From Lunularia cruciata (taxonomy: Eukaryota > Streptophyta > Marchantiopsida > Lunulariales > Lunulariaceae), in NCBI GenBank assembly GCA_948567375.1, contig OX419756.1, positions 72,678,333-72,742,332 of the forward strand: a stretch of 64,000 nucleotides of DNA, given 5' to 3'. Below the pieces are notes generated by a model. That model ran no database searches. It saw only the letters and a list, made by a program, of their open reading frames with translations, and was not told the origin of the DNA. Shown one piece after another: positions 1 through 24,319 of the stretch (positions within the stretch are counted from its first letter, which is position 1; the number at the start of each line of letters is the position of its first letter). The translations under genes were made by a program, and so were the position numbers.

Positions 1-863
1 CACTCTTCCAGATACTCGGCACCAAGCTTGCTTTATCCATGGCCTATCATCCTCAAACTGATGGACAAATCGAACACGCCAATTGTACATTGGAGGATAT
101 GTTGTGGGCCTTTGTCAATGTCCACCATACCAACTAGGATGAATGTCTTGCAGCTACAGAATTTGCCTACAACAATTCCAAATAGGCAAGCACCGGATTT
201 TCTCCCTTCTTTCTCAATTTTGGCCAAGATCGGCTTGTTCCATATTCTCTTCTTGCTCCCCCTCCCTCTCAGGTTCCTCATACTTCTACATTCGTGACCA
301 CTATATCCCAATCTCTCCAACAAGCCAAATCTCACCTCCTTGTTGCTCAAAATTGCCAAAAACAATATGCAGACCATCATTGTCGTGATCTCACCTTTGA
401 AGTTGGTGATAAAGTTATGCTATCCTCTAGTAACCTCCCTCTCCCACTTGATACCCAAGTTTGTAAACTTGCTCCTAATTGGATAGGACCCTTTGATATC
501 ACCCACATTATCTCTCCTGTTGCTTATCGACTTGCCTTACCTTGTCACATGCGTATCCATCCTATCTTTCATGTTTCCAAGTTAAAACCCTTTGTTCCTA
601 ACCCTTCTTCCTTTTCCTCTCGAATCCAACCTCCCCCTCTTCCTATCCCTATCAATGATCATGAGGAATACGAAGTTGATCGTATTCTTGCGCGTCGCCA
701 TATTCAACGAGCAACATACGGAGTACAAGGTCCTTTGGAAAGGGTATCCCCTTCATGATGCCACATGGGAACCTCTTTCTCACCTCCAAAATGCACATAT
801 GGCCATCAAGGACTTCGAAGCTTTACTGGCGATGAGGACGTCACCAACTAGTGGCGGGGGAAT
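1..863 (+). pseudogene. Ty3/gypsy chromovirus copy A: end of integrase and chromodomain
   Basis: This is the 3' end of a retrotransposon pol gene; the rest lies left of the window. It starts in the integrase core at YHPQTDGQIEHANCTLED, which holds the third catalytic acidic residue. It continues through the integrase C-terminal region (FEVGDKVML, then AYRLALP and FHVSKLKPF) into a chromodomain (EYEVDRIL, then EYKVLWKGYPLHDATWEPL near 715-790). Such chromodomains tether integration to marked chromatin in the chromovirus clade. In-frame stops (for example TAG near 137, where a Trp codon is expected) and a frame change near 700 show the copy is dead. A G-rich polypurine-like tract (851-862) directly precedes the LTR. 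Copy B, in the opposite orientation, is the same family. Confidence 0.9.
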
Positions 864-1435
864 ATGTAACAATATGGAGTTTAGAGATGAAGTTAGTCGG
901 GCTTACAAAGTAGAGAATAATACAAAATAGCCTAGAATATTCTAGAAGCATCTCAAAAGCTTCTTGGGAAGCTTCCCAACTAGTTAACTTGTGCCCTAAG
1001 CAGGTAGCTTCTAGAAGGAAGCTTCTAGAAGCTTCTAACTAGCTTAGCTTGCACGCCAAGTAGGCGGCTTCTAGAAGAAAGCTTCTTGAGAAGCTTCCTA
1101 GTTAACTTGGCTTGCACTCCAAGAAAGCGGCTCAAGGAAGCTTCTTGAGAAGCTTCAAGAGTCTTATATGCTACCTATAAATACCAAGGCCAAAGCTCAT
1201 GCTAAGCATTCGGTGTTTTCCCTCATTCAAGTGTCCCAATGTGAGTTTCCATTCTCCTATTTCTCTCCTCGGTTTTAGTCTTTTATACCAAGGATTCTTA
1301 TTGCTACAAAGATTGATCCACAAATTGTAGGAGCTCAATCATCCAAAGGCATAACCAATCCTCCAAGGATTCACCTTTCATAATAGCAAGTTATGGATCT
1401 CTGATGCCTTAGACCTTAAAACTACTATCCTAACA
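864..1435 (+). repeat. 3' LTR of gypsy copy A
   Basis: The repeat begins with TGTAAC right after the polypurine tract of copy A. It matches, in inverted orientation, the sequence at 2127-2532 that follows the chromodomain of copy B, which is how it was recognised. It contains a TATA box (TATAAATA, 1176-1183) preceded by dense GAA/TTC arrays, so U3 is roughly 864-1205. The right end is uncertain: a TAACA near 1431-1435 is a plausible terminus because integrase-coding sequence of another element starts just after. No tRNA primer-binding site was recognised. Confidence 0.75.
935..1183 (+). promoter_or_regulatory. Heat-shock-element-like array and TATA box in LTR A
   Basis: Alternating GAA and TTC triplets separated by exactly two bases, the arrangement bound by heat-shock factors, occur as three units at 935-947 and four units at 1018-1035, with pairs at 968-975, 1009-1016, 1069-1076, 1090-1097, 1137-1144 and 1149-1156. 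The last pair ends about 20 bp upstream of TATAAATA (1176-1183). This is seen directly; that it confers heat-inducible transcription is inference, by analogy with the heat-activated ONSEN copia element of Arabidopsis. Confidence 0.65.
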
Positions 1436-2115: not shown

Positions 2116-2126
2116 GTCAATTGTAA

Positions 2127-2532
2127 AAGACCAAATCCAAGGAGAGAAATAGGAGAATGGAAACTCCTATTGGGACATGTGAATGAGGGAAAACTCTGAA
2201 TGCCTAGCATGAATTTCGGCTTTGGTATTTATAGGTAGCATACAAGGCTCTTGAGAAGCTTCTCAAGAAGCTTTCTTGAGCCACTTTTTTAGAGTGCAAG
2301 CTAAGTTAACTAGGAAGCTTCTCAAGAAGCTTCCTTCTAGAAGTCGCCTACTTGGCATGCAAGCTAAGCTAGTTAGAAGCTTCTAGAAGCTACCTGCTTG
2401 GAGCACAAGTTAACTAGTTGGGAAGCTTCCCAAGAAGCTTCCTAGATGCTTTTGGAATATTCTAGGTTAATTTGGTTTATTCACTACTTTGTTAGCCTTA
2501 CTAGTTACGTTGCTAAACTCCATATTGTTACA
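2127..2532 (-). repeat. 3' LTR of gypsy copy B, truncated
   Basis: On the minus strand it begins with TGTAACAATATGG directly after a polypurine tract that follows the chromodomain, exactly as in copy A, and stays alignable to LTR A down to about 2127, where similarity stops at the integrase fragment. About 150 bp of the LTR 3' end is therefore missing. The TATA box is at 2226-2233 (reverse complement of TATAAATA). Confidence 0.75.
2226..2462 (-). promoter_or_regulatory. Heat-shock-element-like array and TATA box in LTR B
   Basis: GAA/TTC alternation with two-base spacing recurs at 2255-2262, 2314-2321, 2326-2333, 2335-2342, 2376-2388 (three units), 2422-2429, 2434-2441 and 2455-2462, all upstream of the TATA box on the minus strand. 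The layout matches LTR A although the individual bases have diverged. Confidence 0.6.
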
Positions 2533-3660
2533 TATTCCTCCACCACTAGTTGGTGACAACCTTGTTGCCATTGACGCATCAAACTCCTGGATGGCCGTCT
2601 GTGCATTTTGAAGGTGAGAAAGAGGTTCCCATGTGGCATCATGAAGGGGATACCCTTTCCAATGGACCTTGTATTCCGTATGTTGGCGGCGTCCTCGTTG
2701 GATGTGGCAATGTGCAAGGATACAATCAACTTCATACTCCTCATGATCATTGATAGGGATTGGGGGAGGAGGAGGTTGGGCTCGAGAGGAGAAAAAAGAG
2801 GGATTATGAACAAAGGATTTCAACTTGGAAACATGATGGATGCACATATGAGAAGGCAAAGCAAGTCAATAAGCAACAAGAGAGATAATTTGAGTGACAT
2901 CAAAAGGTCCTATCCAATGAGTGGCAAGTTTAAAAACTTAGGTTTCAAGTAGGAGGGGTAGATCACTAGAGGATAACATAACTTTATCACCAACTTCAAA
3001 GGTGAGATCACAATGATTATGGTCCACATATTGTTTTTGATGATTCTGAGCAACAAGGAGGTGAGATTTAGCTTGTTGGAGAGATTTAGAGATGGTGATC
3101 AAGAAGGTTGAAGTATGGGAGACTTGAGACGGAGGAGGAGCAAGAAGAGAATTTGGGACAAGCGGATCTTGGCCAAAATTGAGAAAGAAAGGAGAGAATC
3201 TGGTGCTTGCATGTTTAGAATTATTGTATGCAAACTCTATAGTTGCAAGACATTGATCCCAATTGGTGTGGTGAATGTTGACAAAGGCATAAAACATATC
3301 TTCCAAGGTGCAATTTGCACGTTCAGTTTGTCCATTAGTTTGAGGATGATAGAGGTTGTTGACAAAGCAAGCTTGGTGCCAAGTAGCTAGAAGAGTGCTT
3401 GCCAAAACTTTTTGGTGAAGCAAGGATCACGGTCAGAGATGAGTACACGTGGCATCCCATGATGTTTGAAGACATTATCAAAGTAGAGTTGCGCCAAGGT
3501 TGGAGCATCCACAGTATCAACCATTGGTGCCAAATGGATTTGCTTACTAAGCTTATCTACAAACACCACAATTGTTGTGTGACCTTATTGTGTCTTGGGT
3601 AAAGAGGTGATGAGATCTAAGCTCACATGTTCCCAACGAGTAGCTGGAATAGGAAGTGGT
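2533..3660 (-). pseudogene. Gypsy copy B: integrase and chromodomain
   Basis: On the minus strand this holds the integrase core (MVFVDKLSKQIHLAPMV, then the second acidic residue in VLISDRDPCFTKKFWQ, and the third in YHPQTNGQTERANCTLED), the C-terminal FEVGDKVML region, and a chromodomain (EYEVDCILAH, then EYKVHWKGYPLHDATWEPL). A frame change near 3400 separates the second and third catalytic residues, and another near 2940-2860 separates integrase from chromodomain. It is closely similar to copy A. Confidence 0.88.
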
Positions 3661-6955: not shown

Positions 6956-7149
6956 CTCTTGTTGTCAAAGATCTCGTTCATCCAACAATCAAGTAAGGTG
7001 CTCGAGCTCCAAGGGCGGAGCTCCCTTTGAGTGGATCTTCTTTGTTACATAATAAAGACAATGTGCTCCTTTGGGACATCAAAGTATTGAGGGTTGAAGC
7101 CTTATGTTCCTTCTCTTGTGTTTCTCTTGGGGATTTTCCTATCCTCAGA

Positions 7150-17580: not shown

Positions 17581-18030
17581 AACATATGAAGTTGATTGAA
17601 TTATTACCGAGTGCATGGCTAATCAAAAACCAATATATAGAGTTCAAAGTTCTTTAGAAAGCTTATACCCTCCATAATGCTACATATGAACCATTTCATT
17701 ATCTTCAAAATGCTCAAATGATCTCCTATCACTTATCATTTTAACTGCCTACCACATCTATGTTAATCTTGTTTTTCTTTTTTTCTAAATTTTAAAATTG
17801 AATCTTCACATTTCTTCTAACTCAATTTTTTTTTTTCAACAAATTAATTTTATTCACTTGAAATCAAAGATGATTAGAAATGTGAAGTTGATTAATTCTT
17901 TGCCCATTGTACGTTGAATCACTTCAATCACCCGTATACAAATATGTAGAGTCCGGAGTTCTTTAGAAAGATTATGCATTCCGTCATGCTAAATATGAGA
18001 ATTTCCATCTTCTTCAAAATGCTCTTTTAG
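17580..18030 (+). pseudogene. Two decayed gypsy chromodomain remnants in tandem
   Basis: Two segments (about 17580-17720 and 17890-18030) both match the chromodomain end of copies A and B at the DNA level: GAAGTTGATT (EVD), then GAGTTCAAAGTTCTTTAGAAAG or GAGTCCGGAGTTCTTTAGAAAG for EYKVLWKG, then ATGCTACATATGAACCATTT for DATWEPL, then CTTCAAAATGCTC for LQNA. Stops and transitions dominate. Their ~300-bp spacing with similar intervening sequence suggests a tandem duplication. Confidence 0.65.
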
Positions 18031-20563: not shown

Positions 20564-23500
20564 ATGGCCGATGCTGTCCTTAGAGAGCTGGGTGTTGAGA
20601 ATGGAGGACGTGTTGTGTTCGATCGCAGCAGGGTCCGGATTTTACTCTGTGACCCGAGTACATCACCAGAGGTCGTGGATCTTCTGCGCCGTTGCTCTTA
20701 CCAAGGTAGGAAATTGTAGACACCTCATCTGTCTGGACTTAATTTTGAGAACTCATGGTATTGTACATGGGGTATCGACCGCCGCGCCGTACGCTGTTTT
20801 GAATCGTACCTTACTGAATGCCTTGCGATATGATTGACCGTTTTGTGATTTTGCATTATTCTTCCTCCGTAGCTTCATGCTGCAGTGGTACTTTGAGTCA
20901 TGTTTGGATCTTGGGATCGAGTCAAGATTTCTGTTTCAATGCCATGATGTCCGTAGACGAGTGGCAGTTTGCTCGTTTGACTTGTGCTGCCGTAGAGCGA
21001 ATTCTCTCACACGTGCAGCCACCTTACCGTCGCATTCTCTTTCCCATAGTATTTCTGCAATTTCTTCTTCAAGCAACGGAAATTTTTGTCACCGCTGGTC
21101 CGTTGGGTGATTATTTGCCACTGCGAGGCTAGTACGGTGACGATTTTGTTCACCATTTGGATTAGATTTAGCTGAAAGTCGCACAAGGTTCCGGATATCC
21201 TCAAGGTTGACAGGGCTGTCTGTGCAAGTTTGTGGATGCTACGCATGGACTTGAGGGATAGTTCCGCCTCCGTTTTGGTAGCTTTTCTTCTGTTTCTCGA
21301 GTAGTGAATACTGATGCTTTGCTTGTGTTTCCAGTCGTGGCCGTGCAAAATGCCAGGCAGGTGATGGAAGTTCTGAGGAACGGCATGGCCGATGTGGATC
21401 TTATACTGGCTGAAGTAGAACTCCCGAAGAAGAAAGGATTTAAGATGCTGAAGCACATAACCAAGGAGGAGCGCTTGAAACAGATCCCGATCGTCAGTAT
21501 GTATACTACAGCTCCGAACTTCTGTTTTTTGGTTGGCGACCGTTCTACCCGTCATTTTGATCAATCAGATCCCCTTAGGCTCACTGATCCGCCGTACTGG
21601 TTCATCCTTTAAACTTGAGTTTGGAGATCGAAACTTCTTCAGATTGTGCTATGTTAACAGTTGTTACACAACCTTTACTCATATGTTAACCGTTGTCTTA
21701 GTTAAATCAATTCTAGCTGGTGATCTAGTCACTAATATGTAGTATTTTGGCTCAGTGATGTCCTCACGGGATGAGATGGCAGTCGTTGTCAAATGTTTGA
21801 GACTTGGAGCAGCTGACTACCTTGTGAAGCCCCTTCGCACGAACGAACTGCTTAATTTGTGGACCCACATGTGGCGGAGGCGACGAATGGTAACCTCTTC
21901 CTCTTGGACAGTTGCCCATACCATTCATGTGTTGCCATTTTCTCTGGTCACTCTCAAATTGGTCACACGTTCAAGTCGAGCAGTCCTTGCTTGACGGTCA
22001 ATTCTAGTTCAGTAAAGCAAGGACTTTCGCTGTCTGTGGATTGGGGTGCAGGAGAAAGAACGCCGCTGCCGTTTCGTTGACATGTTGTAGATTTATTTTG
22101 TGTCTATGAGCTTCCAGAGTCCTAAAAGTGGCCGTTGCGTACTCGCATTCCTACGAGGGTAGCGGTTACTATCATCCGAAAGCTTGAAACTCGTGTCCTC
22201 TGTTGACCAATCTTCGTGATAAACTTTTATGTGACAGCTCGGTATGACGGAAAAGCACATGCTGAATGGAGCTCTGAACATCAACTTCCCGCCGATAGAC
22301 ATGCTTGTTTCGGATACAAGTGAGTCCAATACCACCAGTACAGACCTCTTCTCCGATGACAGCAATGACCAGCCTCGTAGGAGTGTGATGGAAGTAGCCA
22401 ACAGCAAGCTTGCCCACAGCTCGGGCGTCCAACTTAGCATCCACGTAAGTATTTCACCTCTTGGTCTACATCCATCTTGCTCTCTACCACCCTAGATTAG
22501 GAATCCATTATCTAGAATATCTTGTGTTGAGCGATCGCACTTCAGAGCAGAATCCAACGATAGAGATACTGGGCATCCTTTCTCCGAGCTTACGTTGCCT
22601 GTCTTTTGCATCCATCCGAAAGTCACTTTCCCCTTGTCATAGATCTGGACGCACCGTGAAGCGTTTTCACATCGAAAAATGTCCACCGTGCGAAGGATTC
22701 ATACCCCTGTTACTTCTCTTGGTGTGAATCATTAAGCCAGAGACACAGATTGTGGTACGAGATGCATGCACACAATGGAGAAATATGTGGCCGAGACTGA
22801 CCATATAACCTATGCCCGTTTCCATCACAGTCAAATCGTCTACCAGGACTGGAGTTAACTTTGAAGCCATCGTCTGATTCGGCAGGAGCTGAACGACCAC
22901 CTCCCTCCGGAACAGGTGATTGATTGGATCTTCTCAGTTCGCTCGAAAGTCAATCAGGGCTGCTTGTCAAACAGCGTCTTTGTTTTCTGTATTCTCCCTT
23001 GTCTGTCGAGTGGTACCTATTCCCGTACAATCCTCGTCCGTGGAACACAAATACGTTCCAGGAGATATACTGCTTCTTCCTCGTCATGTCTTGTCCAGTT
23101 TGAAGTTAGTATTGAACCGTGTTCTAACCAACGAGATCCGTATTCTTACATTCAATATATTTTCCACACTGTTTCATCTCGTGTTCTTTTGTTTGTGATG
23201 AGCTGTTGAAACGATAGTTCTTTCCCAGTACTCATTCCAAACGAGAAAACAGTTACTGATCTTCCGTCCTGAACGTGTATCCCTGCAGTCAACTTGGAAC
23301 TAGTACCTTCTCCACCTAAGAAAACCGTGTTGAAAATTGCCCAGTCTTCCGCCTTTCTCTCATACGCAAAGGTAAATAATCAGAGGTTGGACAGGCCGAT
23401 GGAGCTTCACAGCAGTATGCCAGCTGACAGTGACGTCTTCGAGCATCAATCCCTGGCTCCGACGCACCCGCACCCAACTGTGCATTCAGCTTCCCATGTC

Positions 23501-24319
23501 CGGCCATCTATGGGAATTTGTATGGGCCCTCCAGCTTCTCAGTGGGAAGCGGTCACTAGTAGTAGGTCTCAGGGTTTGAATGCGAACTTGTGTATAGATG
23601 GTGAGAGCATTCCATCCAGTCGGACAATTCCTTGGAGTACGTGTGAGCCTTCGAGATCGAGATTTGCGCACACATCCTCTGACCAGGTCCCTACACCTAT
23701 GCTTCAGATGCATACCCGGAATGAAACCCTAATGGGTGTCCCCTCTGTACCTAGTATTCCTCGTCATCTTCTCTCTCCAGGCTTGGTAGCTCCAAATATG
23801 CACCCATCCGTTATGATGCCTCCTGCCATACACTTGTACCATGGTTTGCCCCAGGATGGGTCTATAGGCATAGCTTCCAGAATACCTCCAATTCATACTT
23901 TACCACCAGGTCATCAAATGGGCCCACCTACCTCCTTCTCCTACTATCCAATTACCCTACCTGTGGGTCCCTCGACAGGGTGGCCACCTATGGTTAGTAT
24001 GACTATCTCTGAACGCAAGCTAGAGCAGGCTGAGAGGAGGGAAGCAGCATTGAACAAGTTCAGGCAGAAGCGCAAAGATCGCTGTTTCGAGAAGAAAATC
24101 CGATACGTTAGTAGAAAGCGCCTGGCCGAGCAACGGCCGAGAAACAGAGGTCAGTTCGTACGGAGAACAAGCGACAACGAGATAAGTGGAGTTGTGGATG
24201 AATCTGAAGAAGAGTACGATGAAGATGAAAATGGGTCTAGTGATGCTGTTACGGACATGTCTCCTGAGATGTTGTCCGAGAATTCGCTGAGTGTCCCGTC
24301 GGGTGTAAGAACATCATGA
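20564..24319 (+). CDS. TOC1: Pseudo-response regulator, TIMING OF CAB EXPRESSION 1 (TOC1/PRR1)
   Basis: A core clock protein, in Arabidopsis a nuclear DNA-binding repressor of morning genes. Exons read: 20564-20705, 21335-21496, 21756-21889, 22238-22444, 22831-22915 and 23289-24319; all phases join and give 586 codons plus TGA (Arabidopsis TOC1 is 618). The start ATG has an in-frame stop upstream (20528). The pseudo-receiver covers about residues 22-140 ([31 protein letters not shown]). The phospho-acceptor Asp position is Glu74 (LILAEVELP), as in TOC1 proteins, so no phosphorelay is expected. A middle motif ([20 protein letters not shown]) is typical of TOC1. The CCT domain is residues ~490-536 ([20 protein letters not shown]), followed by an acidic tail. 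Convergent with the UBP gene downstream. No break seen; expression not judged. Confidence 0.95.

Follow-up and report, generated by a model that had tools for sequence, protein, structure and literature searches.

Why should a long terminal repeat (LTR) in a liverwort genome be crowded with GAA and TTC triplets at a fixed spacing just upstream of a TATA box? Heat shock elements (HSEs) are the sites through which plants turn genes on in heat; a canonical HSE has three or more GAA/TTC units at 2-bp spacing, and the rule for heat shock factor (HSF) is a succession of 5-bp steps. The question is raised by a 64,000-nucleotide stretch of Lunularia cruciata DNA (the window), the start of which falls inside a Ty3/gypsy element (element 1) with its 3' LTR at positions 865 to 1287. 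We propose that the U3 region of this LTR is probably an HSF-driven, heat-responsive promoter of a very abundant chromovirus, ONSEN-like in its mode of action. Under heat stress, trimers of the host HSF would attach to the HSEs of three and four units; this binding would turn on transcription from the TATA box 19 to 21 bp downstream of the array, and genomic RNA would be made and new copies inserted while the host is heat-stressed. All three parts of the model, HSF binding, heat induction and heat-driven amplification, we infer from sequence.

Element 1 is represented in the window by the 3' part of its internal region (positions 1 to 864, plus strand), comprising an integrase C-terminal/SH3 region and a purine-rich stretch adjoining the LTR. 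An open reading frame at 294 to 758 matched SH3_Tf2-1 (E 4.8e-19); the domain search found no chromodomain in that frame, and the reading frame is broken in the window copy. The LTR, also on the plus strand, is 423 bp long, begins with TGTAACA and was 96.2% identical by BLAST over 421 bp to the 5' LTR of another copy, L021. Boundaries were set from L021 and L025, both of which have two LTRs and 5-bp duplications; in these copies the 423-bp LTR runs from TGTAACA to TTTTACA and is followed by TTGGTATCAGAGC, which we take to be a primer binding site (PBS) fitting tRNA-Met. Pfam matches to the pieces of L021 came in the order Asp protease, RVT_1, RT_RNaseH, Integrase_H2C2, SH3_Tf2-1 and Chromo, the last (PF00385, E 3.8e-13) at residues 214 to 266 of the final piece and in the same frame as SH3_Tf2-1, while gag scored 23 bits, under the Pfam cut-off of 24.1. 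The chromodomain piece, L021:5760-6026, retains a WKGY...TWEP core. A 5-bp target duplication flanked all six LTR pairs examined, and the K2P distance between paired LTRs was 0.0024 to 0.056 in six pairs, a difference so small that some insertions are probably recent. With this pol order, an integrase C-terminal chromodomain (in L021), LTRs, PBS and target duplications, the element is a Ty3/gypsy chromovirus; a first-pass annotation of the window had called it a chromodomain Ty3/gypsy family, correctly, although the domain itself was found in L021. The nearest liverwort-named reverse transcriptase match was from Riccia sorocarpa at 55%, and other contigs reached up to 74%, among the matches listed.

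An exact scan of the element 1 U3 found eight runs of alternating GAA/TTC units in 5-bp steps between positions 935 and 1156: one with four units, one with three and six with two, none of them assigned a strand. From the 5' side these are the three-unit HSE GAATATTCTAGAA (935 to 947), the two-unit runs GAAGCTTC (968 to 975) and TTCTAGAA (1009 to 1016), the four-unit HSE GAAGCTTCTAGAAGCTTC (1018 to 1035), a second TTCTAGAA (1069 to 1076) and three more GAAGCTTC runs (1090 to 1097, 1137 to 1144 and 1149 to 1156), the last two being the first and second arms of a GAAGCTTC-N4-GAAGCTTC block. The second arm contains the last unit upstream of the TATA box, TATAAATA, which was read from the sequence at 1176 to 1183 on the plus strand, 19 bp past that unit. 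Only two of the eight runs reach the canonical three-unit length, and the six two-unit runs fall below it. The first-pass annotation had described more than eight clusters at exact two-base spacing; the spacing is indeed exact, but the count is eight. It had also placed four units at 1018 to 1035 and three at 935 to 947, both of which the scan recovered, and had set the end of the array about 20 bp upstream of the TATA box, in agreement with the 19 bp here and with a gap that is near-fixed across copies. Hairpin-capable blocks resembling GAAGCTTC-N4-GAAGCTTC lie at 957 to 976, 1079 to 1097 and 1137 to 1156.

Repeats are also present within U3. A repeat search found a pair of 60-bp direct repeats with 72% similarity that bear HSE runs (968 to 1087, plus strand), and a 35-bp repeat pair at 80% (1035-1069/1098-1132). 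The 60-bp repeats make the U3 runs dependent on one another, so that the shuffle counts given below overstate the number of independent coincidences. In two other copies (L060:1035-1507 and L086:1037-1507) an extra U3 block of about 47 to 50 bp adds GAAGCTTC units. It seems that the array grew partly by duplication and that HSE number varies by block duplication.

We scored HSEs by counting unit matches, allowing none or one mismatch, in place of using an HSF position matrix, and compared the counts with those in shuffled sequences (2000 of each kind, keeping 1-, 2- or 3-letter words, or AAGCTT whole). The element 1 LTR contains 11 adjacent unit pairs, a number reached in 0/2000 shuffles of every kind, with shuffle means of 0.19, 0.29 and 1.23 for 1-, 2- and 3-letter words and 0.57 with AAGCTT whole. 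The last of these is the comparison against which the first-pass annotation had staked its claim, and HSEs proved commoner than in the AAGCTT-keeping shuffles. An artefact of composition or of AAGCTT is ruled out by the shuffles that keep these words. The longest run of four was less extreme, being reached in 0, 1, 10 and 3 of 2000 shuffles (1-, 2-, 3-letter, AAGCTT), and two runs of at least three units were reached in 0, 0, 1 and 0 of 2000, in the same order. When whole GAAGCTTC was kept as a block, 11 pairs were reached in 0/2000, the run count in 14/2000, the runs of at least three units in 47/2000 and the longest run in 238/2000. There were three exact three-unit sites, a number matched by 0/1000 shuffles keeping 2-letter words, 0/1000 keeping 3-letter words and 1/1000 keeping AAGCTT; when one of the nine letters was allowed to differ, there were seven sites (0/1000 in each kind). 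The density of adjacent pairs was 35.5 per kb in the U3 of element 1 compared to 0.78 per kb at 2601 to 64000, where the 48 pairs equal the shuffled rate (40 to 67 in 20 shuffles) and at most three pairs fell in any 310-bp stretch when sampled at 10-bp steps. Within the element, two copies had 12 to 13 pairs in the 423-bp LTR against 4 to 5 in about 4.8 kb of internal DNA.

A second copy of the element, diverged and inverted, has its LTR in the window as well (2122 to 2532, minus strand, 411 bp, BLAST 85.9%). The exact scan found eight runs here, one with three units at 2376 to 2388, and a TATA box was read from the sequence at 2226 to 2233. Its 9 adjacent pairs were reached in 0/300 shuffles; its single exact three-unit site was reached in 4, 30 and 17 of 1000 (2-letter, 3-letter, AAGCTT kept), and its four sites with one mismatch in nine letters in 0, 1 and 2 of 1000. 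Positions 2533 to 3423 (minus strand) were assigned to the 3' part of the element 2 internal region weakly, by their position beside the LTR; an antisense ORF at 2938 to 3423 within them had no Pfam match. Between the inverted LTRs, 1441 to 2121 resembles by eye another Ty3/gypsy integrase region, which suggests nested insertions. Farther along the window, a reading frame with a CCT motif at 23294 to 24319 (plus strand) is of the clock-type pseudo-response regulator kind, and its protein is 74% identical over the full length to Marchantia polymorpha PRR1 (pseudo-response regulator 1); among the matches listed, the next by E-value was at 45%, and others covering at least 80% were at 46% or less. 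This one gene speaks for a liverwort as host and against a flowering plant.

We evaluated how the array fared across the family in copies from 30 junction loci, picked by the 20-mer spanning the LTR end and PBS, blind to U3, which were the first by position and all on contig C1 at 0.5 to 7.7 Mb. Full-length LTRs in one BLAST piece were obtained from 25 of the 30, with L059, L068, L071, L077 and L084 excluded, and these were 76.8 to 97.9% identical to L021. All 25 had 4 to 14 adjacent pairs, with 0/300 dinucleotide shuffles reaching the number in each. As to an HSE array with at least three adjacent nGAAn units upstream of a TATA box, a run of at least three units was present in 22/25 copies (a run of four in 14/25), and TATAAAT in 22/25 aligned copies, the other three being without it. 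In 18 of these 22 copies the last paired unit lies 19 to 21 bp from TATAAAT; in the rest the distance is 28, 28, 33 and 39 bp.

The letters of the units varied differently from their surroundings. With L021 as reference, A/T and CHH sites only, and variants classed as shared when found in at least three copies, unit letters of the 25 copies carried 24 private variants and 1 shared variant; for the remainder of U3 the corresponding counts were 62 and 37 (Fisher p 4.8e-4). Among 310 circular shifts of the mask, none brought diversity or the number of shared variants down to this level. At A/T sites only, the numbers were 12 private and 0 shared against 21 and 20 (p 1.3e-3). The direction was unchanged when any of three further copies served as reference (p 2.7e-4, 5.3e-3 and 3.5e-4; 0 to 1 shifts as low in diversity). 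For the C/G (CHH) core sites alone the contrast was not significant in the 25-copy set (p 0.086 to 0.121). A larger and less even set of 83 copies was made up of 92 full-length LTR matches minus duplicate loci, many of them chosen because they resembled the query closely or contained the 18-mer GAAGCTTCTAGAAGCTTC; the same definition of shared was used, under which recurrent C-to-T changes can pass as shared in this set. Here the shared:private contrast was not significant (p 0.25) and the C/G (CHH) core leaned the opposite way, with 10 shared variants to 5 private ones in the core and 40 to 45 outside it (p 0.955), though core diversity was still the lowest (0/310 shifts). A per-letter count of changes at GAAGCTTC sites of the junction set, using its own cut-offs and per-column majority letters that differ from those of the conservation test, found 11 changes out of 158 at each of the two spacer letters, 6 at the outer G, 10 at the outer C and 2 to 4 at each inner A/T letter. 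We take the pattern to be a sign that purifying selection has acted on the HSE units of lineages that kept transposing, the sequence evidence being that the HSE letters were maintained during the spread of the family. The conservation shows a constraint on the GAA/TTC letters and is silent on which protein reads them.

The same letters might be kept for their structure in RNA, with GAAGCTTC-N4-GAAGCTTC palindromes folding, in the U3 part of the genomic RNA, into hairpins that serve packaging, dimerisation, the making of small RNAs or the formation of the 3' end, and with the HSE match being incidental. Most two-unit runs do also sit in hairpin-capable pairs, the U3 RNA (925 to 1174) forms a much stronger fold than shuffled sequences do (z -6.49, 0/200), and three GAAGCTTC-N4-GAAGCTTC pairs aligned across copies had 95.2% of cells paired against 34 to 56% with the partner slid. 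However, a two-sided change was found in 0/24 arm pairs among the 25 copies, arm cells were paired as often in shuffles (95.3%), the two-base spacing within units and the near-fixed TATA gap fit HSEs and not hairpins, and the three-unit and four-unit runs at 935 to 947 and 1018 to 1035 are not N4 hairpins. Given a strong fold yet no covariation in 25 copies, we rejected hairpins as the reason for conservation; they are not needed to explain it, and we consider this account quite unlikely. Slightly more doubtful still is that the pattern is a disused byproduct of tandem duplication in a palindrome-rich block, its abundance mirroring copy number, which we regard as very unlikely. The 60-bp direct repeats, the block insertions of L060 and L086 that bring further GAAGCTTC units, and the 83-copy set without a shared:private contrast would all accord with such an origin, but in the 25-copy set the core is privately mutated as often as elsewhere while shared variants are nearly absent (1 vs 37). 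A passive repeat is disfavoured because unit letters in this set take private but almost no shared variants.

A protein other than HSF, or general enhancer repeats, might act through the AGCTTCTAGAAGCT palindromes to give transcription that is constitutive or tied to some other stress. Conservation constrains the letters without pointing to the bound protein, and the heat-activated Ty3/gypsy elements PHRE1 and PHRE2 of moso bamboo were linked by their authors to TCP, DOF and GATA factors (PMC8656106). We nevertheless hold a different factor to be unlikely. The spacing of opposite units has a sharp maximum at 5 bp, as the HSF rule has it, with 260 pooled occurrences compared to 0 to 9 at 3, 4, 6 and 8 bp and secondary peaks of 64 at 7 bp and 70 at 9 bp, and the exact 18-mer GAAGCTTCTAGAAGCTTC occurs in HSF reporters; it is on account of this peak and this 18-mer that we favor HSF. 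A literature text search found the 18-mer in ten papers, including as part of synthetic HSEs in the reporter of an HSF1/HSF2 isoform study (PMC3572029) and of a yeast HSE2-lacZ construct (PMC4214751).

As for what an HSF-driven promoter of this form might achieve, heat-response elements with four units in copia elements of Brassicaceae were reported to give up to thousand-fold heat induction and those with three units up to hundred-fold, whereas gap and step types were mostly insufficient (PMC5059998). On that scale, the liverwort LTR would be equipped with one strong and one moderate site, and the six two-unit runs would be weak alone. In a figure legend, the Marchantia factor HSFB1, an HSF from a liverwort, is described as binding an HSE probe in vitro (PMC12445474).

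The family is abundant, on a scale that the first-pass annotation, as with the hairpin-capable pairing of most two-unit runs, had not noted. We searched 565.8 Mb of genome in 74 contigs and found the LTR start, with at most two mismatches, at 17,961 places (8,925 + 9,036; reversed pattern 15), and the exact 20-mer of LTR end and PBS at 2,362 (1,168 + 1,194; reversed control 0). The 18-mer GAAGCTTCTAGAAGCTTC had 5,213 exact copies (reversed control 0), and all 15 of the 15 GAAGCTTCTAGAAGCTTC loci fetched held this LTR. A general four-unit pattern, GAANNTTCNNGAANNTTC, occurred at 7,083 places compared to 117 for its reverse, and 49 of 50 such places inspected (in the first 4.4 Mb of C1) had the family form with a central (T/C)AGAA or its complement. 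Judged from these 50 inspected places, most four-unit HSEs of the genome appear to lie in this one family. Only two matches to the HSF DNA-binding domain were found in the genome, at C14:50658-51116 and C10:53595627-53595803; the first contains internal stops, perhaps from an intron that was read through.

Lunularia cruciata has been reported to have a genome of 580 Mb, almost twice that of other liverworts studied, mostly through Ty3/gypsy bursts, with Ty3/gypsy making up 40% of repeats and 2,827 full-length LTR elements compared to 222 in M. polymorpha (PMC9985172). Possibly, the elements of those bursts and the HSE-bearing LTR family are the same; the word 'heat' is absent from the text of that paper. 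We would go further only speculatively: it is conceivable, if rather improbable, that HSF coupling let the family flood the genome, so that about 18,000 LTRs hold nearly all four-unit HSEs in a plant with two apparent HSF genes and act as an HSF sink or as heat switches of neighboring genes. If this were true, an HSF-driven chromovirus would be a main engine of genome growth in a liverwort lineage. Should heat activate the family, environmental stress would become a concrete candidate cause of the genome-size jump, and a plant with few HSFs, in which most strong HSEs sit inside transposons, would be a test case for the working of the heat response under such conditions.

Several known systems share parts of this arrangement. 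The idea of HSEs in a Ty3/gypsy LTR has a precedent, having been proposed for Cryptococcus TCN3, also a Ty3/gypsy element: two putative HSEs lie in its LTR, and in one assay it gave insertions at 37 C and none at 30 C; TCN12, an LTR retrotransposon of the same genus, has putative HSEs too (PMC12810828). The host there is a fungus, two putative HSEs compare to eight runs here, and the use of HSF is the authors' suggestion (PMC12810828). Nor is it new that one transposon class holds most HSEs of a genome, because Helitrons carry 61.4% of those of C. elegans, and Caenorhabditis Helitron HSEs were described as occupied by HSF-1 upon heat shock; unlike the liverwort family, these are DNA transposons and their HSEs are not in an LTR promoter (PMC6927752). 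PHRE1 and PHRE2 of moso bamboo are, like the liverwort family, Ty3/gypsy elements (about 5 kb) and have an LTR active in heat, but the factors found were TCP, DOF and GATA, and the term 'HSE' is absent from the text (PMC8656106). In the titles and abstract starts of the open-licence papers listed by our searches we found no report of an HSE-bearing plant Ty3/gypsy LTR or of this family.

The closest parallels are ONSEN (COPIA78) and TERESTRA, in which a four-unit HSE or HRE likewise sits in the LTR, an origin by duplication of shorter motifs has been proposed, and the host HSF pathway is hijacked (PMC3907296, PMC5059998). Membership of ONSEN itself is ruled out by the Ty3/gypsy pol order with chromodomain and by CG and CHG content. 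ONSEN and TERESTRA are Ty1/copia elements of Brassicaceae, which are flowering plants, whereas this is a Ty3/gypsy element of a liverwort; the ONSEN LTR is described as free of CG and CHG sites, and the liverwort LTR has both (PMC3907296, PMC5059998). We counted 12 CG and 7 CHG cytosines on both strands of the first window LTR, which is hence not a methylation-blind LTR of the ONSEN type, free of CG or CHG cytosines. Heat activation is proven for ONSEN and predicted for the liverwort family, and ONSEN numbers 24 copies in Arabidopsis thaliana and 55 in A. lyrata compared to thousands here (PMC3907296, PMC5059998). The suggestion of the first-pass annotation, a new heat-responsive retrotransposon, thus stays a prediction, if one with more behind it than the letters of the window alone could give. 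The elements in which ONSEN-type heat coupling has been demonstrated are copia elements of low copy number in flowering plants; in Lunularia cruciata a probable switch of the ONSEN kind sits in a bryophyte Ty3/gypsy chromovirus with thousands of copies.
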